A stretch of 64,000 bases of DNA from Henricia sp. BOLD:AAB3569 (lineage: Eukaryota; Echinodermata; Asteroidea; Spinulosida; Echinasteridae): positions 1,502,501 through 1,566,500 of the forward strand of contig JBBELK010000329.1 in the NCBI GenBank assembly GCA_037783545.1, read 5' to 3'. The notes under the pieces were generated by a model that made no database searches, was not told the origin of the DNA, and worked only from the letters and a program-made list of their open reading frames with translations. The position numbers and the translations under genes are program-made. Positions 14,498-61,183 of this stretch are shown one piece after another. How positions within the stretch are numbered: the first letter of the stretch is position 1; each line of letters begins with the position of its first letter.

Positions 14498-17400
14498 CTA
14501 CAACTCTGTCGTTGGTTCACCTTCTTCGTTGATAATTGTATCAAGAGCAGCATTATCAAGACCCTGGTCTGCAATTTCCCTGAGAAACAAAAACACGTTA
14601 ATAACAGATGTGATACAAAATATTTTATCTAAAATTTGCTAAATACCGGTATTTGGCCGCCTTATTTATGGACAGTATATACCTTTTGCATGGCAGCGAT
14701 CTCGGGGAGCAATTACACAGGGAGCATGTACACAAGTAAAAATGTCACCCTTTGTGTGTTGCCAAGGTTACTGGAGGTACACTAAAACCAGTGATCTGTT
14801 ACCCTGCGCTTTGGCAATGGACATTTCAGATTACCAGTGAATATTAAGACTGGGGGCCAATTTCATGATGCTGTTTAACAATTTGCTTAGCACAGCATTT
14901 CTTTGCTTTTTATGTCTTAGAAGCCAATTTTTTTGTCAAATTGTGTTTTTATAAAGACTAGCAAATATTAGTAAATACGCATCACATACGATTTTGGCTG
15001 GCAACCGATTTTTGCAATACAAGGCAAATAAATTCTGTGCTAAGCAAATTGTTGTGCTAAACAGTGCCATGAAATTGGCCCCATGGTTATCCTGGCAACA
15101 GACGTCCCGCTTAGTCACTAAAGTGATTTTGTCACTGTGTATCATGAATGCATAGGCGCTTTGTGGAATTACCACATTTAAATAAGAAAACCTGCCCTGC
15201 AACAGGGCCACCAGTAAAAAGGATGTATATGTATGTTAAAGAAAATCCCGCTTACTTGGACTGATCTGCTATGAGATTCTCCAGTTCCCCCACGGCTTCA
15301 TCCACATCCTTGATGGCCGATGAAGATGCTTTACCTGAAGATGGTGATGATGAGGTGCGGGAATCTCTCCTTGGAGGCGAATATTGGGGAGGATCTTCAG
15401 TTGCCTTTAAAAATAGCATGAAATTTGATTCTTATTACATGATGGAGCGCGTGTGGTCAAAGTACGAACAGAGACCTCCGACTCGGATTCGAATCCCAAT
15501 AAGGCCCTTACGATTTTCTCTCATCCCAAGTTTGCTTGTTTCAATTTCAATGGTGATCAGGCACCATACCAGATGTTGTGTTCATTGTTTTTCAACTGTG
15601 GGTTCCCTCCATGACTTGCTATAATCAGTGCCCTATTGTCAAGAAAATTCTAAAAACAAAAGCAAATTGATCTGTGTTTAAAACTAGTCAAATTTCATTT
15701 CACTCAACCTTGCACTCGTCTGGAGGTGGTGGTAGATCTTGCGACGAACTTGAAGCAGAGTCGGACTCCACATCAGGTGTAGGGGGAGGGGGAAGGTCGT
15801 CCTCCGAGGGTGGGGGTGGGAGATTTTCCTCGGAAGGCGGGGGTGGCAGGTTGTCCTCGGAAGGGGGAGAAGGAGGCATCTCAGAGGTGCCAGGAACATC
15901 AGGGTCTGCTCCTTTTGTCACATTGTCATCATTCTCTGTTAATTTTCATTGAAAAGTGAGACACGTATTGTTGATCCAGACAGAACAGCACTTGAGAGGA
16001 AATATGGGTCTAAATACATCCTCTTAAAGATTTCGGAAGGGAAGAGGGATCGAGGGGAGTATGAGGCTTCTTAGAGGTTCCAGTAACTTCTGTGTCTGCT
16101 TTTATCACTTCAGCATCATCCTCTGTTTTTATTAAAAATGAGATACTTGTTGACCCAAACATAAGAATACCTACACTCATGGAAAAAAGAAACGCACCAC
16201 TTACTACAGTTTTATTAATATTGATCCCATGTTCTATTTTTGGCCAACAATAACTTATGTAAAGGTGTTGTCGGTATAAACAAAAATGTTATAAATGCAC
16301 TGACATTGAAACAACTAAAAAAAATAACAAGGTACCCTGAAACTTCAGTTTTCTTCAAATGCATGGACAGTTAATACTGAGTGTGTCCACCGTTTAGCTG
16401 CCAAAACTGCAGTTATCCTACGCCTCAAGTTCCATGGCAAAAAATAATGTATTGATCGTCACGATAGTATGGGTTGCCATATGTGCTAATGATCGCACAG
16501 AGCTCCAATTCATTGACGGGAACCTGAACGGCCAGAGATACCGTGATGAGATCTTGGAACCTATAGTTGTTCCATTTCTGCAGAGAGTGGGTGATAATTC
16601 AGTATTCCAACAAGACAATGCACGTCCCCATGTGGCACGCATCTGCAGGGACTTCTTGGAAAATGCTGATGTTGATGTTCTCCCATGGCCTGCGATGAGT
16701 CCGGATCTGAACCCCATTGAGCATTTGTAGGATGAGCTCAACCGCCGGATTCGACGACGTGAACCACCACCCGAAACCCAGCAGCAGCTCAGACAGGCTT
16801 TGGTGGAAGAGTGGACAGCTCTTGAGCAAAATGTCATTCGTAACCTGTGCCGATCCATGAGGCGTAGGATAACTGCAGTTTTGGCAGCTAACGGTGGACA
16901 CACTCAGTATTAACTGTCTATGCATTTGATTAAAACTGAAGTTTGAAGTACCTTGTTATTTTGTTAGTTGTTTCAATGTTAGTGCATTTATAACATTTGT
17001 TTTAATTTTTTTATACCGACAACACCTTTACATAAGTTATTGTTGGCCAAAAATAGAACATGGGATCAATATTAATAAAATATTGAAACTGTAGTAAGTG
17101 GTGCGTTACATTTTTCCATGAGTGTATATAGGAACTTTAGACGCCTATTCCCAAAGATCTCCGAAGGGGTTGGGTGATAGGAGGCCTCTTGGAGCTATAC
17201 CAGGATCCTCTTGATCTGCTTATTTTATCATCTCAGTTTCTTTAAAAGAGGAAGTTCCTCTTTTATTGAAAAATATACACGTAATGTTGACCCAGACGAA
17301 GAGTACCTAAGAGGGAATGTGGGTCTGAACACCTCCCAAAGATTTTTAAAATGAAGTCTTAAAGATGCACTTAGAGCAAGTGGGTAGGTGGCAGAAGGTT

Positions 17401-37358: not shown

Positions 37359-38064
37359 ATGGGAAATTTTGGAACATTTGCTATTTTTGGTCTTAAAAGT
37401 TAGATAATGAGCCAAGGAACTCAAATCAAATTGTTGCCATTTTTTAATCGCTTCCGTTTGGCGGCCATCTTGGATTTCAAAATGGCCGCCATTTTCAATA
37501 TATTTTGCACTATATCTCGACTTCTGAGCACCGTAGAAAGCTGAAAATGGTGGCAATACCCAGGTTTGTGATAGCAAGGAATGCATTGATTGCATCTAAA
37601 ATGCCAAAGATCAGTTCCTTGATGCCACTACCCTTGATTTCAAAATGGCCGCCATTGTAAAATAATTTGTTCCATTTCATGGCTTCCGAGCAACAAAGAA
37701 AGTTCAAAATAGTGGCAATACCCATGTTTATGATGTCCAGGAATATGATAACAAGATTCCCCAAGTCCGTACAGCTAGAGTTTGGTAGCTACCGTAAAAT
37801 TCAACATGTGTGCACATTCTTACAACAATATATAATATAATTATATTGTAATTTTCTCGAGGTTGAAAATGACTTAGTTTAAATTGTTATTTCATCTGGC
37901 TAATTTTGTAAACATTTAAACCTTTACAGCTGGTCATTAATTTCCTCTGCTTCATTGTTCTATCGTGGCAGACATTTCCACCAATTACTGCGTAAGGATC
38001 AAATACACTTTTGAAGAACTTGGAAATGGTAGTACTTACAAATTTCACTTAGTTTGCCTTGTTA

Positions 38065-40290
38065 TTAAACACTATCTTCGTCATCTTCATCCTCATCACT
38101 GACATCTGCCACAGCTAGAATGTTGCAGCAATCCTCGCTGGCATTACATTTACATAGTTCTGTGCATTCCAAGTTGTTGTTCTTGCAAGTGCATCGCATG
38201 GTAGAACATAGAGTCTTGACACAGTTACATTTAATAAGTTCTGCCACCGCATCTGGAGCACAGTTCATCTCCGTCAATTTTGGCGATAGTTTGGATCCAT
38301 CTTTGCACCATCCAAGTTTACATGGGTCATAAATGACTGGATCCACCACATCATCCTGTGCCCATATACTTGCTTGAAGATGCATGGGCTCGTAGACTGT
38401 GCTGTAGCATGGCACCTGGTGTGGGAGGTAGCTTATCAATCCCTTGCGTAGGTTTAAGTTTCTTTAACTTCTTCCATCGTAGAGAAGCTGCAGAAGTAGC
38501 TGACACATCTCTGGTGCTTAACAGCATACAAAAAAACTGCTCACAACCACTAATGACACTTGATTGCGGAACTTCTCCCTTACCAAGATCACTCAAGGCT
38601 TTGACAACATTGTCTGGTGCAACTATAGCAACTTAGCAAGTGCAGTTTTCTTGCCAACGCCGCTTAATCTGCCTGTTGTGTCTGAACCAGTTAAAGCATG
38701 AAAGCCAGGGAGGGCCGTAGCTCTAGACGTTCCTAGTTGTTCAAATATAGTCTTCAGAGGTACAAGTGTCCGTTTTTCAGATGTCCCAGTGAGGATACAA
38801 GTATTCAGACCCACATCTGGTAGCCTTCGCAGGAGCAACACCCACCAGTCTGTATCTTGAGTGAAGAAGTCTACTTCAATGCCAGAATGAGCAAGTTCAA
38901 GCCCGTGTAAAATCATGAGGGTATCTGCCTCCTCCTGTGTGCTCACACCTGTTGTACACTTCAGGTTTAATCTATTTGTCAAAACATCTCTTCTTGTAAC
39001 TGTAACGACAGGCTTGTAGCTTTCTTGTATCAGTGTATCTGCAAGGTAGAGAGTAAGGCTATCCTTAGACTTGCTGCTGGCCATTACCTTCTTCATGTCC
39101 CTTACAGGTGTTGTTTCTTCAATGATGAGGTCATCCCCTTCGGTTGTATAGCGGATATCATCTTTGAGAGTTAGCTTCTTGTGGTAATTGTCAAAGATTA
39201 TATGCCCACCTGCATACGGACGGAGGAGAGAATTGATATTATGTATGAATGCTTTCCCGACATCCTTAAACGTTTGGAATGCACTAGTTGAAGAGGAAAC
39301 AATTGCCTGGACAACTGCCATTGCATCTACTATTAAATGCTTCTCCTTCTGACAAGATTGCTCTGAGGTTACTTCTGGATGTGGGTTAGGGTTGACACTT
39401 TCAGTTGTCAGCTGATTGTTGGTATCCACTTCTTCATTCGAAACTATATTTGGTTCCTCAGTTTCATTGGATTCATCTTCTGACACTTCTAGCAGACTCT
39501 CCAGTGCATGGATGAGCTGACTCTTGTTTTTGCATGGCAGCAGATGTCCACTGGCGTCCATCAGTGTAGTATTAATTACATTGAGTTCATACTGAGATAT
39601 GATTTCTTCTAGATCCAGATGTCTCTGAGATTTTGCCACGACTAGCAATCTTGACAGCATTGTACTTGTAGATTTAAGATGCATGATTTCCCCTTTACTT
39701 TTAAGCTTCACCTTTTTGCAAAGTTCATTCCAGTTTTGGAACCTTAACTTGGACATCTTCTTCCACAGATTTTCTTCTCCACGAATGCGGGATTCAACAA
39801 AATCTATCTTTGCTTGTTCCCCTCTGTCTTCCATACCCAGGATTGACGCTTGTGTCTCTTCTGTAACCACTTGGTTAGTCATGAAGTTGTACAGATTTGA
39901 ACCATCTTCCTGTTTCTTGAAAATGTGCTTTGGATGGATCACTGCTTTCAGGTCACCAATTGCACGTTCCTGTCGTGCTGTCTTTCCTTTAGAGAGGAGG
40001 TGATGTTGATCTGTGCACCAGGAAGGCATGCACAGCATGTCACGGTACTCGTGTGCAATACGGGACAGTTCTGGTGCAGCAAGGCAATACTTCAGTAGTG
40101 CAGAAGGATTTGTTGTAATACCCTTTATTCCTCCATCACCCTTGATACATTTGTTTGCATGTTCTTGTGCTTGGTCTAACCCAATGCTGGAGAAAGGAAT
40201 ACTGCTGGCAGAATGGGCAAACTCACCACGCAACATACTTTCCCAGATTTCAGGATCTGTATCCTTAGACTGATAAACTCCCTGGTGCAC
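38065..40290 (-). pseudogene. FEN1/XPG-like nuclease plus CXC domain, transposon-associated, copy 1 (frameshifted)
   Basis: The main frame (to 38623) encodes about 555 residues. Nuclease-like landmarks in order are HLIVDAMAVVQ, QEEADTLMILHGLELAHSG, VDFFTQDTDWWVLL and FHALTGSDTT...GVGKKTALAKL. These parallel the N-terminal Asp, the EA-A and DSD metal ligands and the helix-hairpin GxGxKTA motif of FEN1/XPG nucleases. A frameshift near 38625 moves to another frame (DLGKGEVPQSSVISG, LPPTPGAMLQH), and a second near 38370 to a third (LQASIWAQDDVV). That frame ends in a cysteine-rich CNCVKTLCSTMRCTC block like tesmin/TSO1 CXC domains. The frame is open to the spacer boundary, so the true start is not certain. 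Related proteins with FHALTGxDTT and EEADT motifs are, as I recall, common in repeat-rich invertebrate genomes. The nuclease call is inference. Confidence 0.65.
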
Positions 40291-41923
40291 AGATCAACAT
40301 CACCTCCTCTCTAAAGGAAAGACAGCACGACAGGAACGTGCAATTGGTGACCTGAAAGCAGTGATCCATCCAAAGCACATTTTCAAGAAACAGGAAGATG
40401 GTTCAAATCTGTACAACTTCATGACTAACCAAGTGGTTACAGAAGAGACACAAGCGTCAATCCTGGGTATGGAAGACAGAGGGGAACAAGCAAAGGTAGA
40501 TTTTGTTGAATCCCGCATTCGTGGAGAAGAAAATCTGTGGAAGAAGATGTCCAAGTTAAGGTTCCAAAACTGGAATGAACTTTGCAAAAAGGTGAAGCTT
40601 AAAAGTAAAGGGGAAATCATGCATCTTAAATCTACAAGTACAATGCTGTCAAGATTGCTAGTCGTGGCAAAATCTCAGAGACATCTGGATCTAGAAGAAA
40701 TCATATCTCAGTATGAACTCAATGTAATTAATACTACACTGATGGACGCCAGTGGACATCTGCTGCCATGCAAAAACAAGAGTCAGCTCATCCATGCACT
40801 GGAGAGTCTGGTAGAAGTGTCAGAAGATGAATCCAATGAAACTGAGGAACCAAATATAGTTTCGAATGAAGAAGTGGATACCAACAATCAGCTGACAACT
40901 GAAAGTGTCAACCCTAACCCACATCCAGAAGTAACCTCAGAGCAATCTTGTCAGAAGGAGAAGCATTTAATAGTAGATGCAATGGCAGTTGTCCAGGCAA
41001 TTGTTTCCTCTTCAACTAGTGCATTCCAAACGTTTAAGGATGTGAGCACACAGGAGGAGGCAGATACCCTCATGATTTTACACGGGCTTGAACTTGCTCA
41101 TTCTGGCATTGAAGTAGACTTCTTCACTCAAGATACAGACTGGTGGGTGTTGCTCCTGCGAAGGCTACCAGATGTGGTTCTGAATACTTGTATCCTCACT
41201 GGGACATCTGAAAAACGGACACTTGTACCTCTGAAGCCTATATTTGAACAACTAGGAACGTCTAGAGCTACGGCCCTCCCTGGCTTTCATGCTTTAACTG
41301 GTTCAGACACAACAGGCAGATTAAGCGGCGTTGGCAAGAAAACTGCACTTGCTAAGTTGCTATAGTTGCACCAGACAATGTTGTCAAAGCCTTGAGTGAT
41401 CTTGGTAAGGGAGAAGTTCCGCAATCAAGTGTCATTAGTGGTTGTGAGCAGTTTTTTTGTATGCTGTTAAGCACCAGAGATGTGTCAGCTACTTCTGCAG
41501 CTTCTCTACGATGGAAGAAGTTAAAGAAACTTAAACCTACGCAAGGGATTGATAAGCTACCTCCCACACCAGGTGCCATGCTACAGCACAGTCTACGAGC
41601 CCATGCATCTTCAAGCAAGTATATGGGCACAGGATGATGTGGTGGATCCAGTCATTTATGACCCATGTAAACTTGGATGGTGCAAAGATGGATCCAAACT
41701 ATCGCCAAAATTGACGGAGATGAACTGTGCTCCAGATGCGGTGGCAGAACTTATTAAATGTAACTGTGTCAAGACTCTATGTTCTACCATGCGATGCACT
41801 TGCAAGAACAACAACTTGGAATGCACAGAACTATGTAAATGTAATGCCAGCGAGGATTGCTGCAACATTCTAGCTGTGGCAGATGTCAGTGATGATGATG
41901 AAGATGACGAAGATAGTGTTTAA
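40281..41923 (+). pseudogene. FEN1/XPG-like nuclease plus CXC domain, copy 2 (5' truncated, internal deletion)
   Basis: Near-identical to copy 1 but in opposite orientation. It begins inside the coding region (DQHHLLSKGKTARQ) and so lacks about 85 N-terminal residues. It also lacks 105 residues between TFKDV and STQEEADTLM, an in-frame 315-bp deletion bounded by a short TGT repeat. Both frameshifts of copy 1 are present, so they predate the duplication. The CXC-type cysteine block ends at the stop near 41921. Neither copy can make the full protein. Confidence 0.7.
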
Positions 41924-42846
41924 TAACAAGGCAAACTAAGTGAAATTTGTAAGTACTACCAAGTTCTTCAAAAGTGTATTTGATCCTTACGCAGTAATTG
42001 GTGGAAATGTCTATCACGATAGAACAATGAAGCAGAGGAAATTAGTGACCAGCTGTAAAGATTCAAAGGTTTACAAAATTAGCCAGATGAAATAACAATT
42101 TAAACTAAGTCATTTTCAACCTCGAGAAAATTACAATATAATTATATTATATATTGTTGTAAGAATGTGCACACATGTTGAATTTTACGGTAGCTACCAA
42201 ACTCTAGCTGTACGGACTTGGGGAATCTTGTTGTCATATTCCTGGACATCATAAACATGGGTATTGCCACTATTTTGAACTTTCTTTGTTGCTCGGAAGC
42301 CATGAAATGGAACAAATTATTTTACAATGGCGGCCATTTTGAAATCAAGGGTAGTGGCATCAAGGAACTGATCTTTGGCATTTTAGATGTAATCAATGCA
42401 TTCCTTGCTATCACAAACCTGGGTATTGCCACCATTTTTAGCCTTCTATGGTGCTCGGAAGTCGAGATATAGTGTAAAATATATTGAAAATGGCGGCCAT
42501 TTTGAAATCCAAGATGGCCGCCAAACGGAAGCGATAAAAAAATGGCAACAATTTGATTTGAGTTCCTGGGTTCATTATCTAACTTTTAAGACCAAAATTG
42601 GCAAATGTTCCAAAATTTCCCATTAATTACACATGCATCTGTACTAGTTGGTCCAGTTTGTAAATGTTTGTTTTGTTGTTTCGTTTTACATATGTAATGC
42701 TCGCGGATCGTAGTCGTGTTAATTGGGGAGTGGCCTCGGTTTTAAAAGGTGCAATCCTAGGTTTATACGACTTCCATTCTGTGCACACAATCGGGGTCAC
42801 TGTTGGCTTATATACACTCTAAAAACAGATTGGTTGAATTCAACCA

Positions 42847-47541: not shown

Positions 47542-48183
47542 TCAACGTCGGTACTGACTTTTCCACTTCCTCACCAGCCCTCGTTTGCTCTTCATGGCGT
47601 CTGTGCTGCTCACGAAATCGACCCGAGCGCCGTTGATCCGGCGCCGACGGCCCACGACCATGGCCCGAACCTTGGCGAACACAAAATCCACGTTCTTTGG
47701 GTTCCGGGCATCCGTCTCTGTATACCTGACCACGTCCAAGTAATCGATGAGTAAGAGTTCGGCTTCGGCGAACGTCAGGGCGTTCGAGCATCTTCGGTCC
47801 GATTTGTTGCCCACGACGAGCACCAGAGGTTGCTGTTCGGGTTGTGCTTTCTTAATCTGGTCCAAGAGTCGTAGAACATCCTGGAATGATTCGGGATCAT
47901 CCAAGGAGTGAACAAGAAGGAAGATGTGGGCTGTGGAGACGTAAAGCCTCCTCATTCCAGGGAATTCGTTGCACCCCGAAGTGTCGATGATGCTAACGAG
48001 ACATTGCTGACTTCCTAGCGTAGTCTCCCACACGTGGGACTCCTCTATAGTCGGTGTATACGTCTGACTGATCTCACCACGAAAAAACATGGAAACGAGA
48101 GCCGTCTTGCCGACTCGAGGGGAGCCTAGCACTACCATACGATAAACAACAGGATCTTGACTGTGCCTCTTCGCCGTGAACAT
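47542..48183 (-). CDS. RASD/Dexras-like small GTPase, intronless, without CAAX box
   Basis: 213 residues in one exon, ATG at 48183. The P-loop is GSPRVGKT (20-27), switch I contains YTPTIEE (42-48), switch II has DTSG (67-70) and the base-recognition motif is NKSD (126-129). DTSG in place of DTAG, the MRRL after it and the AEAELL stretch match the RASD1/RASD2 (Dexras/Rhes) group. The usual SAK motif is replaced by ETDA, and the C-terminus is basic (RKWKSQYRR) with no cysteine, so prenylation is not expected. Rhes and Dexras are larger (about 266-280 residues) and end in CAAX. Alternatives are another Ras-like subfamily or a recently retroposed copy. Residues needed for GTP binding are present. 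Confidence 0.88.
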   Translation of the reverse strand: MFTAKRHSQDPVVYRMVVLGSPRVGKTALVSMFFRGEISQTYTPTIEESHVWETTLGSQQCLVSIIDTSGCNEFPGMRRLYVSTAHIFLLVHSLDDPESFQDVLRLLDQIKKAQPEQQPLVLVVGNKSDRRCSNALTFAEAELLLIDYLDVVRYTETDARNPKNVDFVFAKVRAMVVGRRRRINGARVDFVSSTDAMKSKRGLVRKWKSQYRR

Positions 48184-48960
48184 TGTCAATTACAAGCCTG
48201 AGAACCTATCGACAAACCTTCAGAAACCCGCAGTCTTGGTCTGTGCTCGGAGGTGATGTTTGGCACATCTGCTCAGACAGATCTTTTCAAAGGATGCAGT
48301 TGTCACCCAAATCTCGCCCAAATCAAGCTGGATCATCTTGTCTTCCAACCACGCTTATATATACAACACAGAGATATGACATCTTCACACACGGCCGCAA
48401 ATTGGAAAAACGACCTCGCGAGAGCTGTCGTAGACCTTCCCAATTCCACTAAATTTTGGAACTTCCAAACGGCCTTTCTCAAACAACATTGTATAACAGG
48501 CCCTGTTCCAAATTGTTCAACATTATCTAAGTAAACTTGCCGTAGCTTAACCAGTATGCGTTTTGCAGAGAAAGCCATGCACCAAAATGAAGCTTTTTGT
48601 TTTAAGAAAAAGGTCAGATTTAAGATGTAAAAAGTTGTGTCAAAATTCGTCAGAGTAATACACCTTTTTATCAACATCATTCGCCGGCGGCACTCGTTCC
48701 CAAACATGCAGTGACAGCCGAAAAACACCCGCCTATAAATCGAATGTACACAATATAGTAGAATCATATGCACATTTTTGAAGGCTTCATCAAAACCAGT
48801 TGAAAAATTACCATAAACGTCGTCAGATAACAAAACCCACATTTCTAATAGAGTATTTGTGCATTATTGTTTACACACGTTTTATACATTGTTATCTGTA
48901 CGACAATTTTGAAGCACGACAACAGTTTACGAAAGACTTCGGTATTACACGGAGCTCTAA
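48184..48960. other. Upstream region of the Ras-like gene
   Basis: Should contain the promoter of the minus-strand GTPase gene. No coding exon or repeat with clear ends was seen. Confidence 0.35.
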
Positions 48961-50977: not shown

Positions 50978-53900
50978 TTAACGGGCCGACTGCTGGGCCA
51001 TATTGAACTTTCCGGACACGCTGAGATCCAATGACCTATCGGTCTGGTTCCCTGACTGCTGATCATCGTTATCGCGTTGTATCTGACCAGACGATGACAT
51101 AATCAACACGTTACCTACGTGCACGCCGATTTCCTTCCCACTGCGCATGACCTCTGTCACATCTTGGTCATCATCTAAGATCTGGTCCCCGCCGCACACG
51201 ATGTACATACGATCAGTGCTGATGTTCTTTCGGCGTGACACTAGCTGCTTGAGTTGCTGTACGGTGGATCCCGGCTCCAGATCAAGATGGATGTCAGTGT
51301 TGGTGGAATGCATCTTGACCACGAGGGAACACGTGACATTCAGAATAGCGCCCTCATCGATGCTGTAGTGGGCCAGGCTGCGGTGATCCTCCAACTGCTT
51401 GCCTTTGTATGAAACCTGTTCAAGAAATAGTTTTAACCACGGTTGTTAAATCTGATAAATTTGAGGCAGTATTTACAATGGGGGGAAAAACTTGGGTGTT
51501 TATAGCGACTGTCCAGTGACAATCGCCAAAAACAGATACATATAATTCCACCTTTCTTGGAAAAAGAGCATCATGCACTGTTATTTCACACAAAGGTTCA
51601 GATTCACAAAGTCAAAAATGGTACTGTACTTCCAGTGTAGACATTTACGCTATGTAAAGGATTCCACCATTATCATCCTACGTCGAAAGGAAAACATATT
51701 GTATTAATTGAGTTATACCATTGAGGTTATTCAATGGCAGTTTTGTTTTTTAAGTTTGCAAATCTCACGGACTTCTGGTGTAGATATCAATGCAATATAT
51801 GGTGCCTAATCACCATTGAAAGGAAGCAACCAAACTTGGGATGAGAGAAAAATCATACGGGTGTAGATATGTACACTATTGAAGATACCGCATTATCATC
51901 ATATACCGTAAAGGAAGCTATTATTTGAGTTATACCTTGAAGTTATCCAATGGCAGTTCTGTTTCTTGAAGTTTGAAAATCATGTATACTGGCTTTAAAT
52001 GCTTCCCGGTCCCATGTGGATATGTACGCTGTGGAAGATTCCACCATATCGTCCCACGTAGATAAAAGAAACATGTATCTTGTTTTAGTTATACCTTAAG
52101 GTTATCTAATGGCAGTTGTGTTTTCTCAAACACAGCGGCTTTGATGTTGGCAATGGTGTTGATTTCATCCACTGTGATCAGATGGTGTTGGGTGCTAGAC
52201 AGCTCAGCTATGACCGTGAATCGAAGTCTCAGGTCCAGTGTGGCGTTCCTCCTGATGGAGTAGTGCTGCAGGGAGGCGTGGTTCTCAAGAAGGACCTCCT
52301 TGTACGAGAGCAGTTGCTGGTGTGGTGGTATGGCCGTGTACTTGAAGATGCGCGTCTTGGCCAAAGCTATGGTGTCTTCCGTAGCGAACTCGATGGTGTG
52401 GGTGGGGCCATTGCAGCTTTTGACCTGAGACAATGTGGGAAAATAAAAAAACATGATTAGGTATGGGCATGGCGTCCATTTCAGAAGTGGGTGGTTTTAT
52501 ATAGAAGTTACAGCTAAACATTAGATCTAACCATTTGCTGGTAACCTGAAACACCCATTGGTAACTTAAAGCACGATTCATTGTTTTGAGTGTAGCCTAT
52601 ATAGGTAACACACAAAGGGTGATGTTTTAGTCGATTGTCGAAGTATACATACCTTCAGCTTAAGCACATCTCTCTCCTTAAGTGGTGGTGACGCCAATTT
52701 GAGATCCACTTTCTGAACACCTTCAGGCATGGAACTTGTTGGCATATTAATGCTGTCATCCATATGCTGGCCATGCAAGAACAAACTCTGCCAGGGGACA
52801 GGAATACCCTCCTCCGTCTCCAAGATGGCTTTGAAGGCAGCCACGGTTTGCTCCCCAGGGACCTTAATCTCAAATGAGCCCTTGCTTCCACGCTTGGCCG
52901 CGCGGGCTCCTTTAAGTACCACCTCGTAGCTGTACATCTCAGGTTCCGGATCAGCGTCAAGGTGCAGAGTATCCTCGCTAAGTGGCGCGGACTCCACTTC
53001 TGTACGCTGATCATCTTGAGGTTCCTCCGCAACTTCTTGTTCCCTTCGGGCCCTCTCTGCCTGCAGCTGTTGTTTCTTTAGCTCGATCTCTCGACGTTCC
53101 TTCTCCACTTCGCTCCAACTCGGAAGGTGCTCGCCCTTCTTCGGCTCTCCGCCGTTCTTATCTAGCTCCTCCATGCGAGTCGCCAGCTCTTCCATCTTTC
53201 TTGGGGAGGATATGTTTAGCTGAAGGTATTCAGCTTCCCGGTTGAGGATATCCTTGTCTCGATTTATCTGATCTAAAGCGATCTGCATGAGGGCGCGCTC
53301 CATTCTCTCCTGAGCTTGCAGACGTCGATCAAGAACATCCTGGAGACTATCCAATTCTTTCTTTTTGATGACGACGTCTTCCTCGCGTTGCTGAAGGTCT
53401 TCGTCTTTCTGGTTTGCTCCAGACGTCATGTTGCTCACTTCTTGAGACTTTGACTCCAGCTCGCTTTCCCAATCTCGCATCTCTTGTTCCATCTCTTGGA
53501 CTTGTTGTTCTTTCTTCTCAACCAAGGCCTGTTGATGTTGGAGGTCGTCTTCCATCTCCTTCAACTCCAGTGCATTCATTTCAAGACGTCTTTCTTTTTC
53601 GTTAAGACTCTCTTCGCGGTGGTGTAGATTCTCGCCAATGGTCTTGACGTCTTCCTCTGCTTGAGCCACCGATTTCTCTCTCTGTTTCAGCTGTGTCGCG
53701 ACCTTTCGCTGTGCGTTCTGCATCAGCTTGACATGCTCCTCAAAACGGACAACCTCGATCTCCTTGCGTCGCAGCTCAATCTCTTTTTTCTTCAGAATGC
53801 TCTCCTTTCGGCGAATCTCGTCTTCTCTTTCGGACAGCTGTGACTCGCTGGTTTCTATGTTATTTTCCCGTTCTTTCATTCTATTCTCCCTGACGTGGTA

Positions 53901-56900
53901 TTCCGCACTGCGGAGGTCCTGGCGATCTCCCCTCTGTACCGTATCAAATCCCTTCTTCTCCAAGGATTCGTGCTGGCGTCTCTGAAGCTGATTGCGCTGT
54001 TTCTGCTCCTCCTCTCTTCGCCGAAGTTCGACTTCCTTCGATGCCAGATATGTCTCCTTCTGTTCCAGCACGGCCATGCGTCTTCTGATCTGACCCTCCC
54101 ATTTGCGATGTTGTTCTTCAAGCTTCTTACGCTCCGTGTCAGCCTCTGCGACTCCCGCCTTGAGCTGCTGGCGAGACTCGGCAGCATGTTGGCGGGCTGC
54201 ATCGGCCTGTGCCACGGCGATCTCTCGTTCCTCCTCGGCAACCTTAAGTTGGGCTTTCAGCTTCTTGATGGAGTTATTCGCCTCTGCCGTCGTCTGTATG
54301 CATCTCTCCAGCTGTAAGGACTGCTTCAGACTATCACTCTGTGATTCGGTCAGATCTGATTGGAGGTTTGTGAGCGATTTCATGACGTCATTTGACGCGC
54401 CGTTTCCAGCAGAATGGGGCGATCCGCGCATGCTCTGCGGCGAAGCAGGCAGAGAAGGGCGGCTTCCCGCGCTCCCCTTTTGGGGATTAAAGCCTGCACC
54501 TAAAGAGTATCAACAAAACAATGATAATTGAAACTTAAATTAGGATTTACGAAACACAAAAACTGGTCTAAAGCCACGAACCTAGAGTAAAATAAATGTT
54601 TATGCCAAAATATAAACACCACCTTAAACCGAACACCATAAGAAACAACAATCATTAAGAAAATTGCTCTCTATACCACTGAATCTTACAAGTTTAAGAA
54701 ATTATTTAAATATTCGCTGCTTATGTGCAACTAGGAGCTCACTTTTTGGGAGTGGCACAACAATATTCTTGAGTTGTTCCCATAACTCGTTGGATAGATG
54801 CTGGAACGGATCCCTCAGGGTCTGCACGATGTCAAAGAACACGACGTACTCATTGACCTGGGGCAAGATGGCGTCAAAGAGCATCTCTGCCTTAGCCTCA
54901 GGCTCGTGTTCGCGCTCTATCTGTCGCTTGGTGGCGCTAGATAGCATTATTCCCTTGCATGCGTCCAGTTTCCGGACGAGGCAATCTGGATCCGCGGCGA
55001 CGTCGCTGATGAAGATGTTACGGCATCGTTTGAACACGTCTGTGTAACTGCCGGAGGCGCCGCTGGAGGAAATGCAATGGCGTTTCTCGTCTGCAAATTC
55101 AATGAATTGACAAATTTTCGTCTGAGATGCTGAGCATCGTGCTGCCTCAACAGGGTTGAAATTCACGTAGGCCATTGCCTCCGTTGCCCCTGGTCAACCC
55201 CAAAAGGCTCCTAAAAAAATGCAAATAGCAGTGCCCTTTCAGAGACGAATTTTCTGCCCTGTCTCAAGCGTCCTTTAATTTGCAAATTTTATGACAAAAT
55301 AAAGCAGCGGGATCAGTAGGTTTCGATGGCTATCATTTAAAAATAATTTTGTCTATTCTGTCGGTCGCCGCAACGTCACTTCCGGTAGGGCCCATGGTGA
55401 CAAGCGAAGGAACAAAGCCGTTGTCTACGCAACATGAACGAATTTGTTTTCACTCCAGTCACGGTGCTATGCCCGTATACAAAGGCATATGACACCGGGT
55501 CAAAAAAGTACCAGGATGTGCGACGACAGAATAAGATACGATGAAGAGACCGATAATATAGGTTTTCCCGGCCAATTTCAGCAAAAAAACTTTCATTTTC
55601 GTCAACACGCAATAAAGTTGCACTGCCCGTGTTTCGGTGAAAAAGATTTTAAAAATTAATTTACACAAGCGAACGAATTTATAAAGCTTACGTGTCTCTG
55701 TAACGAAAAATATCAAAAACTTGAATTTCCGACGTCGAGAACTGGAGAATATTGGTCTAAGCCTTTTTCCTAAAACGTCAAAACATAATACGTCAACACT
55801 CTCTCGATTAAATGACCTGCCAGCCATTTAATCATTTCTTGACGGATTTTTGCGTTCTTGGTACCAAATGAAAGCTGATAACTTTTTCTATTCTAGACAA
55901 ATACCTATTTATCTTTAAAAAAAAAACATTTGACACCCAAATCGGCCAAAACACGGGCAGTGCAACTTTAAGATTCGTGCGGATTTTTCAAGTCTGTGCA
56001 AACTCGGGTTTCTTTTTCCTTAGTATCACATTCTGTTTCGTTTTCGTGCACACAAGATTTTTGCTTTATCATTCAGGTTCGTTTTAGTCATTATTTTTCG
56101 TTTAATGACATTTAAGACTACATTTTCACCATTCCAAGTTTAATCTATGCTGTCTTTTTGCAATCGGGGCAATCAAATTAAAATCCATCGACGCGTGCAG
56201 AATTTTTTGTCTGCGCGTGTTTTTCTTTTTCGTTTGCAGTAAATCTATTTCGCACTCTAAGAGTTCAATTTAGATGTGACATAGATTATTCGAGAAGGTA
56301 CTGCTATTGTCTGTCACTGTAAGTTGTTCTATATGATATTCGTCTTTCAAATAATAATTGTCTTGATGTGAATAATTCCTTTGTATCCTTAACCTTTGTT
56401 TGTATTTATGCCTGTCTCTGGAGTCATTTGAAATCAATTCAGGAAGTTTGTTGGTGTTTTTGCTCTTTACTGTGTGTACAGGTACTGTTCATTTTGTTTT
56501 ATATACAGGGTGTTTAAAAAAAAAGGTAGTCCAACTTTGAAAGGTTGTTTTGACCAGACTATACTTTTGTCAGTACACAACATGGTAGCATCTTAAAGCA
56601 GAGGGTATGGGCTTTCCAATTATGCCTTGGTTACTTTCCTAGGTTCATGCATCACTGAGCACCGTTGTCCTAAAATTGAGGTACAAAATGGGGGTTGGTT
56701 CATTTTTATGTTCAACTTGAACATAAAGCAAAAAATCTTCTGGGCACGAAAACGAAACAGAATGTGATAATAAGGAAAAAGAAACCGAGTTTGATGCGTG
56801 TTGACGAAAATGAACGTTTTTTTTTCTGAAATTGGCCGGGAAAACCTATAATAAGACGCTAAAGTAGTGTCCGGTGATGGGAATATAGTTATGGTGCTAT

Positions 56901-59900
56901 ACAGGGTGTATCAGAAAGAAATAGACACAAATAAAATGGTTTTATTTTTAGACAATTGGCTCACACATATCGGCACACATAGGTTTAATTTTTTGATTAA
57001 CGTCATCATCATGTTGGGAATTTCACACCTGACCGAACAGGGGCTAGTTTTGTAAACAAAGCTAAAAAATAACTTGCGCATAAAAATGGTAATCACGACC
57101 ACTTAAGCGAGCACCTGATTTGGACACTGCCGTCTGCTCGCAAGTGGTCGTGATTACCATGCACCTACCATCGCGAAACATGTAGGTTGGAGTACGTTAC
57201 CAGACTAGTTTCTGAGACGTCGTCGTCTGCTCGCAAGTGGTCGTATTACTACGCATCCACTATGACGAAACATGCAGACTGAGGAACGTTACCAGACTAA
57301 ATTTTAATTCTTAATGTTTGTCTTCAAAAACTGCTTTAAAAACACCTTTCCACTCAAAAGAAACAACTAGATTTTTAATATGTTGTTTATTTGAATGTTG
57401 CGGCCTAGATTAACTTTAGAATGATTTTTATTGCAATTAGTTCTAGGTCAAATCGTAAATTGACTAGACTATAATACGCTAGGCGCTATGCATACAACGC
57501 ACGCAAACTAGAGATGCAGAGATTTCGTCCCACTTTTCACCCATAATGCACCGCGGTAAACATTGCGTGACGTCATTACGTTTCAGGTCTATTACTGCTC
57601 TGTTCTGTATAAAAAGGACGAATTTATAAGTTCTTATTTGTCTCTCCAGGTTATCCACTGGCAGTTCCATGGACAGTAACACAAACTTGGACTTCAGATG
57701 TCCCCCAAAAAAGTCCAGTGATGTTAGGTCTGGTAATTTGTGAAATGGACTTGGGAATGTCCCCCTTAAGATCACCAGACCTAACACCACTGGTCTTGGT
57801 TTTTCTTGCAGGGACATCTCAAGTTGTTGTTACTGCCCATGGAACTGGATGACCCGGGGAGACGAATAAGAGTCAAAGTCACCTTTCTCAGGCAGAACAG
57901 AGCAGTGATTAGGCATGCCTTTGGTGTTAACGTTAACGGTGCAAATGTGTGTGCAGAAAAAGACGGTCACGTGGACAACTGAGGGGCTAGCTAAACTTTC
58001 TGAAAAGCCGATAGCAAAGGAAGGACATGTCAAATTGATCTCTCATGCTCCTTGATCCTGTTTTGCATCTGAGTCTTTCTATAAATTAGGGTTCCAATGT
58101 TGGTGTCCCCCGTTACATTTTACATCTTGTTTTTGTAAATTCAGGACACATTCTTTAAATACTTTCCATCTCAAAGAGTGAGTACATAAAGTACAATTCA
58201 TACAAAATGGTTTAAAAGCCATTTTAATGATTTTTGTACGAAAAATAACACATATCAGGTGTAACGGGGGACACTAAATGTCACACCCCTATATAATTTA
58301 TAGAAAGACCCATCTTCCAATTTTAGCTTTGTTTACAAAACTAGCCCCTGTTCAGGCGTGAAACTCCCAACATGATGACGACGTTAAAGTTGCATTGCCC
58401 GTGTTTCGGTGAAAGGATTTAAAAAATTAATTTACACAAGCGAACGAATTTAGAGAGCTTACGTGTCTCTGTAACGAAAAATATCAAAAACTTAAATTTC
58501 CGAAGTCGGGAATTGGAGATACAAGCCTTTTTCTTGAAACGTGCTTCACATGTTGTACATGTGCGCGTACGCTCATATGTACATAGTATGTGTACAATGT
58601 ACACATGTACGCGCACATGTACATTTACGTCATAACCCTGTCGATTAATTGACCAACCAGCCATTTAACCATTTCTTGTTTTTAATCGACTGGCATTAAT
58701 CATTGACGGATTTTTACGTTCTTGGTACCAAATGAAAGCTGATAACTTTTTCTATTCTAGAAAAATACCTATTTAACTTTTTAAAAAGATTTGACGCCCA
58801 AATCGGCCCAAACACGGGCAGTGCAACTTTAATGAAAACATGAAACCTATGTCTACCGATATTTGTGAGCCATTACTCTATAAATATAATATAATTTTCA
58901 TTTTATCTACAATTTTACGAGTGTTTACTTTTTCTGATACACCCTGTATAAACAACAAAGTCCGTACACCAGAAAAGCTTCTTGTTCCAAGCAATTGCCT
59001 TTGAGATCATTACAATGCATTACCCAACACACTGCACCTACGGCTTTACATCCCATCCAAATGGATAGAGCAATTATGAAGGGAACCTGAAGGGAATACT
59101 TCAACCGATCCTTGTTTTAATTAGTCTAGACACCTTCGCAATTTTCACATGTGATACATATGTAATACACATTTAAAGGCCGACTGTATGCACCTTTTCA
59201 ACAAAAAGCTATGTCAATTAATTACAACGATGCCGACAGGAAACGTCTCGATTGAGCAGAAACCTTTCTTTAAAGAAATATATATTTTAATGAATTTGGT
59301 GATCTTGACGTGCACGTATATAATTGCAGCGGGGGCGGGTGGGGGTGAGGGTGAGCGCACCGTGTCACGTTTTTCTAAAGCAGGGCCCATGTGCATAAAA
59401 GGCTACTAGTTTAGCTGCCAACTAGTGCTTAGTAAGATTATAAATTCCCTAGTTTATACCTACGGAGTTGGCAACTAATTTGTGTTGCATAAAACCTCAC
59501 TAGGCACATTGCTTACTAAAAGTTGCATACTAGGACAATTTGGTTTGTAACTGATTTGGGTGCTATGGCCTTGGAGAGGAGGTGATTATGTCAGATACAA
59601 TAGGCTTGTAGACAAGTTTATTGTGTTTGAGCTTCGAACCACATTCCAACTGAGCAAAACTCATTTCTAAGGGTCTTTGTAACATTGCATTACTGCCCAG
59701 TACTTACAAGTAATCCGTCATTGTAAAGCAAAGCTTAGGCACAAAGTTGTTTAGCTCCATGATTCTACGAGCCATGTTGTCCAAAGGCAGACTGATTAGT
59801 TGTCATCTAGTGACTTAGAGGTACCCCAGATCAACTCTAACTTTTGCCAGAATTTTAGAATGTTACTATATCTAGTTGGGTTTTATGCATCACAATTAGT

Positions 59901-61183
59901 AATCAACTATGCTTAGTAAGCAACTTAAGTCCATTTTAGTTGCCAACTAGGCCTAGTAGCCTTTTATGCACATGGGCCCAGGCCTCCCCCTGTGTGATTT
60001 GTTGCTACCAATCTCGAACGATTACTGCATGGTAATATTTTCGCTCAACGGGTGATTGGTGTTGACCTGCCGTTAAAGTTGCATGTGTTTGGGTGAAAGG
60101 ATTACAAAAAATAAATTTACACAAGCGAACGAATTTAGAAAGCTTACGTGTATCTGTAACGAAAAATATTAAAAGAAATTAAATTTCCGACGTCGGTAAT
60201 TGGAGATTCAAGCCTTTTTCCTGAAACGGGCTTCACATGTTGTACATGTGCGCGTACTCTCATATTAGTATGTGTACAATGTACCTACACGGGTAATTCC
60301 CAAAATTAGGGGTCAAAAAGTGTGAGATTTCCGAGTGTTTTTAATGATTGAAAGTGGTTTCCATTTTTATTTGAACAAATGCCACTCAAATTTAATGTTT
60401 GTGTGTAGATATGGCACCAAGGTTAATGCAAACTCATTCTACAGGCAATTTTCATTGGCGTATAGCTAACCCGGGACACCAAACTCCTATCCAATACCAT
60501 GAAACAAATTATAAGCCTTTATGGTCTTTTGTTTTGAATATTTTTCAGGAATCAGAAAACTAAATATTGAAGAAAATGATGCTTCCCCCTATAATCACAG
60601 GCCACAGTCCATTACTGAGAATTTGTGGTCATAAGTGGTGATTTTTGAAGCAGAGAGTGTCGTACGTAACTGGGACACCAAACATTTTGGACCCCTAATT
60701 TTGGGAATTACCCACGCACGTATACGCGCACATGTACGTTTACGTCATAACCCTGTCGAATAAAAGACAAGGCCTGTCTTTTATTATTTCTTGTTTTTAA
60801 GTCTTATTTTGTTGTGTGTATTTTTAATGTGGATCCCAAAGGCACTTACCCCCTCCTTTTGGCTTGCCGCGTTGCTTGGTGCTTGGCCGTGAACCCGAAT
60901 CCCCATCCTTTGACGGCATGAGCTGCTGAGCGATTTTTTGATGTCCCTGTTGCCGCAGAACATCGCAGAACGCCTCGTATTTACTGGGTTTAGTGATCTT
61001 CAAGACGTCGACCAGCTTAGCAGTTTGCTCCTTGTTGGTTTTCAGCCCTACCACCAGATCCCGTATCTCCTTACTGATAACGTCTCGATCACAAAGCTCC
61101 CTCGCAACTTTCTCCGCGTCGATTTCAGCCGCCATTTCGACCATGTTGGATTCCAGTAACCGCCTTCGTGTGCTTCGATCCAT
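50978..61183 (-). CDS. Five-exon gene: CARD - CARD-like - coiled coil - four ubiquitin-like domains
   Basis: Exons: 61183-60850, 55189-54743, 54499-52653, 52424-52095 and 51415-50978. All introns are GT-AG with matching phase; the total is 3396 nt (1131 residues plus TAA). Residues 1-88 form a six-helix CARD (LLESNMVEMAAEI, VISKEIRDLVVGL, KLVDVLKITKPSKYEAFCDVL). Residues 162-252 look like a second CARD (CRNIFISDVA, LLxxAT/QIEREH, AEMLFDAILPQVNEYVVFF). A heptad-rich coiled coil runs from about 298 to 770. Four ubiquitin-like segments follow: about 782-869, 870-944, 945-1018 and 1019-1090. The third, read across the exon 4/5 junction, is clearest (TIANIKAAVFEKTQLPLDNL, then YKGKQLEDHRSLAHYSI). 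The tail has no GG ending, so conjugation is unlikely. CARD-coiled-coil proteins such as CARD9/11 nucleate BCL10 filaments; tandem ubiquitin-like domains could replace or recruit ubiquitin signals. The role as an immune or death scaffold is inference. Confidence 0.85.
51713..51975 (-). pseudogene. Decayed copies of the 3' end of exon 4 of the CARD/ubiquitin-like gene
   Basis: At about 51931-51975 the minus strand reads QETELPLDNFK followed by GTATAAC, matching exon 4's KTQLPLDNLK and its GTATAAC donor. At about 51713-51757 a more damaged copy is visible. Both sit in intron 4 in the same orientation, so exon 4 or part of it was duplicated in tandem. No acceptor or long frame remains. Confidence 0.55.
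52500..52640. mobile_element. Diverged member of the ~165-bp MITE family
   Basis: Contains CCATTTGCTGGTAACCTGAAA and AACACACAAAGGGTGATGTTTT-like blocks in the same order and orientation as 44683-44848. It lies in intron 3 of the CARD/ubiquitin-like gene, close to the exon 3 donor. Confidence 0.6.
55614..55970. mobile_element. MITE with AAAGTTGCACTGCCCGTG ends, copy 1
   Basis: AAAGTTGCACTGCCCGTGTT is mirrored by AACACGGGCAGTGCAACTTT. Two further copies lie in the same intron at 58384-58832 and 60073-60800. Confidence 0.8.
57640..57810 (-). pseudogene. Mariner/IS630-type transposase fragment
   Basis: Reads LPDLTSLDFFGGHLKSK and MELPVDNLERQIR, resembling the catalytic SPDLxPLDFFLWGxLK region and the following helix of many mariner-like transposases. 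A diverged inverted copy of the second part appears on the plus strand at about 57839-57950. No complete frame remains. Confidence 0.45.
58071..58311. mobile_element. GGGTCATTCTATAAATT-family MITE, copy 2
   Basis: The ends GAGTCTTTCTATAAATTAGG and AATTTATAGAAAGACCC match the element at 46762-47017, as do the TTGTAAATTCAGGACA and GGTGTAACGGGGG blocks. It is nested in the mariner-like element. Confidence 0.7.
58384..58832. mobile_element. AAAGTTGCACTGCCCGTG MITE, copy 2
   Basis: Ends TTAAAGTTGCATTGCCCGTG and the mirror finishing GTGCAACTTTAA. It includes an extra palindromic ACATGTACGCGCACATGTAC-type stretch near 58555-58625 that copy 1 lacks and copy 3 shares. Nested in the mariner-like element. 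Confidence 0.8.
59017..59071. repeat. Short dispersed repeat, also at 62739-62806
   Basis: The words CATTACCCAACACACTG, CGGCTTTACATCCC and GGATAGAGCAA match CGTTACC...CACACTGG, CGGCTTTACATCCC and GGATGGAGCAA at 62739-62806. The element boundaries are unknown. Confidence 0.5.
59383..59979. mobile_element. Element with GGGCCCATGTGCATAAAAGG ends
   Basis: GGGCCCATGTGCATAAAAGG is mirrored exactly at 59960-59979. The interior repeats GCCAACTAG and CTTAGTAAG words in both orientations. The flanks, read together, look like an interrupted copy of the AGCAGGCCTCCCACTGTG MITE at 48961-49122. Confidence 0.75.
60073..60800. mobile_element. AAAGTTGCA-family MITE, copy 3, interrupted and truncated
   Basis: The left part matches 58384-58620 (TTACACAAGCGAACGAATTT, CTTACGTGTATCTGTAACG). 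It is split by another element at 60291-60713. The right end after CATAACCCTGTCGA is diverged, and the right terminal repeat is missing. Confidence 0.65.
60291..60713. mobile_element. MITE with GGGTAATTCCCAAAATTAGG ends
   Basis: The ends GGGTAATTCCCAAAATTAGG and the exact complement enclose a non-coding interior with GGGACACCAAAC words. It is inserted in the AAAGTTGCA-family MITE. The ends share their plan with the GGGTCATTC elements at 46762 and 58071. Confidence 0.8.

Follow-up and report, generated by a model that had tools for sequence, protein, structure and literature searches.

What might a protein do that carries tandem CARDs, a coiled coil and a chain of ubiquitin-like domains (UBLs) in one polypeptide, and is the gene that appears to encode it real? 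The question is raised by a locus on the minus strand of a 64,000-nucleotide stretch of DNA (the window) from the sea star Henricia sp. BOLD:AAB3569 (contig JBBELK010000329.1, positions 1,502,501 to 1,566,500). Judged from its sequence, the gene is real, and its five minus-strand exons are predicted to encode the order CARD1, CARD2, coiled coil and four UBLs. A probable role is in assembling complexes that signal in immunity or cell death. In pathways such as that of RIG-I, CARD oligomers and ubiquitin-type signals belong to separate molecules; here one conserved protein combines the two.

Gene structure and sea-star orthologues

The initial annotation described five exons with agreeing phase and one protein of 1,131 residues. 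This model was reproduced exactly: each of the four introns has GT/AG borders, and the frame holds a single stop codon. The exons, splice sites and single reading frame stand (Table 1), but the start of exon 2 and the protein length had to be corrected. Near the start of exon 2 as first modelled, 35–37 alignment columns are absent from all three sea-star orthologues, and the start at 55189 was rejected, as the residues there have no counterpart and a start at 55090 fits the phase. Five open acceptors for exon 2 are in phase (55189, 55141, 55129, 55090 and 55039), and the choice among them was made by orthologue match. The acceptor at 55090 (gaatttgcag/ACGAG) keeps the phase, removes 33 residues and gives the reading GDEKR..., where Acanthaster has GDIKR and Asterias has GDAK. 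Because of this match, and because the extra block is missing in all three orthologues, it is preferred, and the corrected protein is predicted to have 1,098 amino acids.

The orthologues are proteins of Patiria miniata (1,102 amino acids), Asterias rubens (1,092 amino acids) and Acanthaster planci (1,100 amino acids), which align end to end with the Henricia protein at 72%, 60% and 70% identity, respectively. With the first 330 residues as query, three proteins were found out of 3,946 candidates, with 100% of the query region covered and identities of 57–59%. In tblastn searches all five exons are matched by each orthologue, exon 4 being reached in Asterias and Acanthaster by one match that extends from exon 3. 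The full-length alignments and exon matches argue most strongly that exons 1 and 2 are not falsely joined, a risk that the initial annotation had itself raised, and the earlier assignment of both to one gene is upheld.

When 5.8 billion proteins were searched with the CARD region, with the UBL region and with a four-sequence profile, the same three sea-star proteins came back each time and no others. Candidates numbered 3,946, 3,626 and 7,989, respectively, and in the profile search only the 7,989 that share most words were scored. As the search relies on shared five-residue words and restricts candidate length, diverged relatives in other echinoderms could escape it. The initial annotation had proposed that the same domain order be sought in other proteomes; it is present in three sea stars and, by this word-based search, in none beyond them, and to date sea stars are the only known bearers of the predicted architecture.

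Among the orthologues, database records call one trichohyalin-like, another putative leucine-rich repeat-containing and the third uncharacterized, although CARD and ubiquitin are already listed for all of them in precomputed Pfam tables. The first two names seem to stem from composition, and a probable death-fold scaffold of sea stars sits in public records under such labels. The domain types are all known already. No published description of their order was found in a literature search that had preprints and most subscription papers outside its scope, which is in keeping with the earlier remark that no described family has this arrangement. Starfish have large expansions of a different adaptor domain, TRADD-N (PMC8195603); the present protein does not appear in the portions of that text covered here.

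Domains of the predicted protein

CARD1 exceeds the Pfam CARD cut-off of 23.9 bits in Henricia (33.4 bits, E = 4.5e-8) and in all three orthologues (33.2, 33.6 and 26.2 bits). In the Patiria model the region is confident and helical, with block values of 82–95 for the predicted local distance difference test (pLDDT). It has the six-helix form with helix 1 split in two (3–12, 14–20, 23–32, 38–45, 50–63, 66–78 and 82–88), in agreement with the death fold first proposed for residues 1–88. By sequence against the PDB, the significant matches of CARD1 are CED-3 and designed proteins on an Apaf-1 CARD backbone; CARD9, CARD11 and BCL10 are absent among its 22 matches up to E 10. CARD2 has no Pfam CARD match in the segments of any of the four species, and neither CARD2 nor the pre-coil segment gave a convincing sequence match in the PDB. 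The predicted fold of CARD2 is a six-helix death fold with a broken helix 1 that matches CARDs, Apaf-1 best and CED-3 next, and by this prediction CARD2 would be a CARD. Thus, of the two N-terminal CARDs annotated initially, one is found by Pfam, and the other is missed by Pfam and recovered by predicted fold. In each of the four species a basic CARD1 is followed by an acidic CARD2. CARD1 by sequence and CARD2 by fold match CED-3 and either Apaf-1-based designs (CARD1) or Apaf-1 itself (CARD2); unlike Apaf-1 and CED-3, the sea-star protein has neither an NB-ARC ATPase nor a caspase domain detectable by Pfam.

About 450 residues of helical sequence follow the CARDs. Four long helices take up 429 of 1,102 residues (about two fifths) in the Patiria model, and charged residues make up 0.42 of residues 261–713. 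The heptad register is unchanged in all 14 segments of 28 residues with starts from 424 to 606. None of 1,000 shuffles reached the heptad signal for residues 471–540, and none of 1,000 for 541–610; for 261–312, 313–400, 401–470 and 611–713 the numbers reaching it were 17, 44, 67 and 236. The constant register and the shuffle test support a genuine coiled coil some 200 residues long within the helical region, with weaker stretches on either side, and the scaffold-like build suggested at the outset agrees with this. Conservation was compared over segments of the analyst's own choice in four species, the Henricia protein and its three orthologues. The invariant fraction is highest in the pre-coil segment 261–312 (45/52, 0.87), UBL2 (54/74, 0.73) and CARD2 (62/97, 0.64), and lower in UBL3 (38/70), UBL4 (32/72), CARD1 (35/90) and UBL1 (30/86).

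Cut singly, all four UBLs pass the Pfam ubiquitin cut-off of 25.4 bits (32.5, 49.8, 58.1 and 35.3 bits for UBL1 to UBL4), and the four tandem ubiquitin-like domains of the initial annotation are thereby predicted again; the match of UBL1 spans 44 of its 86 residues. Identities to ubiquitin are 20%, 37%, 28% and 19%, respectively. In alignments the linkers between UBL2, UBL3 and UBL4 are nearly nil. In the whole-protein Patiria model, which was built from three sequences, much of the UBL region has low pLDDT, and because of this low confidence the beta-grasp fold of the UBLs is assigned by profile match only. The leading whole-protein Foldseek match, linear tetra-ubiquitin, was used neither for the fold nor for the arrangement, given the low pLDDT and root-mean-square deviations of 12–27 among the 50 matches shown. 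A link to the TBK1 ULD was also discarded: the whole array scores 32.6 bits against a Pfam cut-off of 31, but the orthologues score 14.8, 17.1 and 18.2 and no single UBL passes.

The protein ends in an acidic tail of 44 residues that closes with QQSAR, and the orthologues end in QIAR, QSTR and QTAR. A C-terminal GG is thus absent from the Henricia protein and all three orthologues, as had been noted for the former. The tail also holds a motif, LDLSVS (window 51014–51031, minus strand), which is conserved in all four species and resembles a CtBP-type docking motif.

NEMO- and TAB2-type domains read polyubiquitin largely through the L8-I44-H68-V70 patch of ubiquitin. UBL2 and UBL3 are the two most ubiquitin-like domains, yet the patch is lost in both. 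At the equivalent positions UBL2 has C, S/S/S/A, D and R in the four species; UBL3 has S, S, N/H/Q/L and T/S. The patch is poor in UBL1, where position 8 is G or S, position 44 F/Y/Y/L, position 68 D or E, and position 70 K or R. UBL4 retains V at 44 and perhaps H at 68, two alignments placing its last strand differently. As the loss in UBL2 and UBL3 and the poor state of UBL1 hold for all four species, canonical polyubiquitin mimicry appears unlikely, any mimicry perhaps running through another surface, and the initial proposal of UBLs acting in place of polyubiquitin towards NEMO- or TAB2-type readers is not borne out. The residues of UBL2 at the patch positions are themselves conserved across species, which suggests that this domain preserves a surface of another kind.

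Tandem ubiquitin folds are also found in linear polyubiquitin, ISG15 and FAT10. By sequence the sea-star array matches the first and the last of these; ISG15 occurs among the fold matches of the protein, which are of low confidence. Unlike these three, the array has no GG terminus, is almost linkerless and has lost the patch in UBL2 and UBL3. The tandem C-terminal UBLs of OASL are said in PMC6019448 to mimic polyubiquitin. The C-terminal placement is alike, but OASL has two UBLs where the sea-star protein has four, and an OAS-like domain in place of CARDs and a coiled coil.

Possible roles in signalling

The reading favoured here, tentatively and at a rough probability of 0.45, is a sea-star coiled-coil CARD scaffold of cytosolic signalling whose UBL array serves as a fixed arm for docking or regulation. 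The coiled coil would dimerise or oligomerise the protein and thereby cluster its tandem CARDs, which would then seed or enter a CARD assembly with a partner bearing a CARD of the apoptosome/caspase type. Such a partner is proposed because CED-3 and the Apaf-1-template designs lead the matches of CARD1, and Apaf-1 and CED-3 those of CARD2. The basic CARD1 and acidic CARD2 would suit pairing inside the assembly. The UBL array would be a compact arm, there to bind a dedicated partner or, folded back, to keep the CARDs in check until triggered; a fixed role is suggested by the lack of a GG end and by the loss of most of the ubiquitin docking patch. UBL2 and the pre-coil segment, as the most conserved parts, would be the likely binding sites. 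If the UBL arm controls the CARDs, the protein would offer a naturally occurring single-chain system in which to test how CARD assembly is steered by ubiquitin-like domains. Perhaps, although this is quite unlikely, a single-chain, ubiquitin-independent CARD oligomer evolved in sea stars, in which the four-UBL arm clamps or releases the protein's own CARDs through a surface other than that of I44, a fixed signal replacing regulated polyubiquitin.

Members of the CARD-CC family (CARD9, CARD10, CARD11 and CARD14) have a single N-terminal CARD directly before the coiled coil, and the sea-star protein likewise has an N-terminal CARD and a long coiled coil. An alternative is a scaffold of the CARD9/CARD11–BCL10–MALT1 type, in which fused UBLs replace polyubiquitin and recruit NEMO- or TAB-type readers. 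Such a role seems very unlikely, since two CARDs precede the coil and four UBLs follow it, the array is packed without the GG linkers of polyubiquitin, the docking patch is partly kept only in UBL4, and none of the 22 CARD1 matches up to E 10 is to CARD9, CARD11 or BCL10. The pathway membership proposed initially is not supported by these results; the significant matches of CARD1 are CED-3 and the Apaf-1-backbone designs. A different possibility is that the protein is a structural or trafficking coiled-coil protein, or an adaptor of the proteasome or ubiquitin pathway, whose CARDs only self-associate and have no immune role. The orthologue names trichohyalin-like and putative leucine-rich repeat-containing, the long helices and the richness in charge would fit such a protein, but two death-fold domains are kept in four species, and this reading is unlikely.

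Tandem CARDs are shared with RIG-I and MDA5, whose CARDs bind K63 ubiquitin chains according to PMC4107945; NOD1 offers a further precedent for contact between a CARD and ubiquitin (PMC4134136). The sea-star protein differs from RIG-I and MDA5 in having no helicase and in carrying its ubiquitin-like part fused in the same chain. This raises the question of whether the UBLs attach to the tandem CARDs of their own chain and so stabilise the CARD oligomer, in the manner of K63 chains on RIG-I or, as is said, of the tandem UBLs of OASL. Such a built-in version of the RIG-I/MDA5 principle is unlikely, as the CARDs are closer to those of Apaf-1 or CED-3 than to those of RIG-I and the UBLs have diverged from ubiquitin (19–37% identity).

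Features of the locus and its surroundings

Table 1. Features of the CARD–UBL gene in window coordinates; all exons but exon 2 keep the limits first modelled, and residues are those of the corrected protein.
Feature	Position	Strand	Content
Exon 1	60850..61183	minus	Start codon, CARD1 (residues 1–90), basic linker; donor gggg/gtaagt
Exon 2, 5' end corrected (earlier 55189)	54743..55090	minus	Linker and predicted CARD2 (residues 126–222)
Exon 3	52653..54499	minus	Linker, highly conserved pre-coil segment (residues 261–312), helices with the coiled coil (ending near 713), acidic linker and UBL1 (749–834)
Exon 4	52095..52424	minus	UBL2 (residues 839–912) and first half of UBL3
Exon 5	50978..51415	minus	Rest of UBL3 (UBL3 = 913–982), UBL4 (983–1054), acidic tail (1055–1098), stop codon
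Three alike 44-nucleotide stretches (family D2)	51705..52123	minus	Exon 4 end and donor (52080–52123), two decayed copies in intron 4

Family D2 has copies at 51705, 51921 and 52080; measured against the one at 51921, the reference, the others show 70% and 86% identity. Within intron 4, at 51705–51964, are two decayed copies of the exon 4 end with its splice donor, which lie outside the protein, as if pieces of a UBL exon had been tandemly duplicated. In intron 1, repeated frames at 55462–55827 and 58419–58664 have FKFLIFFVTETRKL and KFVRLCKLIF in common and are probably copies of an interspersed element.

The downstream neighbour of the CARD gene is a small Ras-family GTPase frame at 47545–48189 on the minus strand (Pfam Ras, E = 1.6e-30). 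A DDE_3 transposase fragment lies at 16398–16727 on the plus strand (Pfam, E = 6.9e-10). A large, near-perfect inverted repeat occupies 37500–42482, its outer limit set by the region searched, with arms of 921 and 766 nucleotides at 100% and of 524 nucleotides at 98% complementarity. It carries similar open frames on both strands and has the look of either an assembly artefact or a mobile or gene-like element duplicated very recently in inverted orientation.

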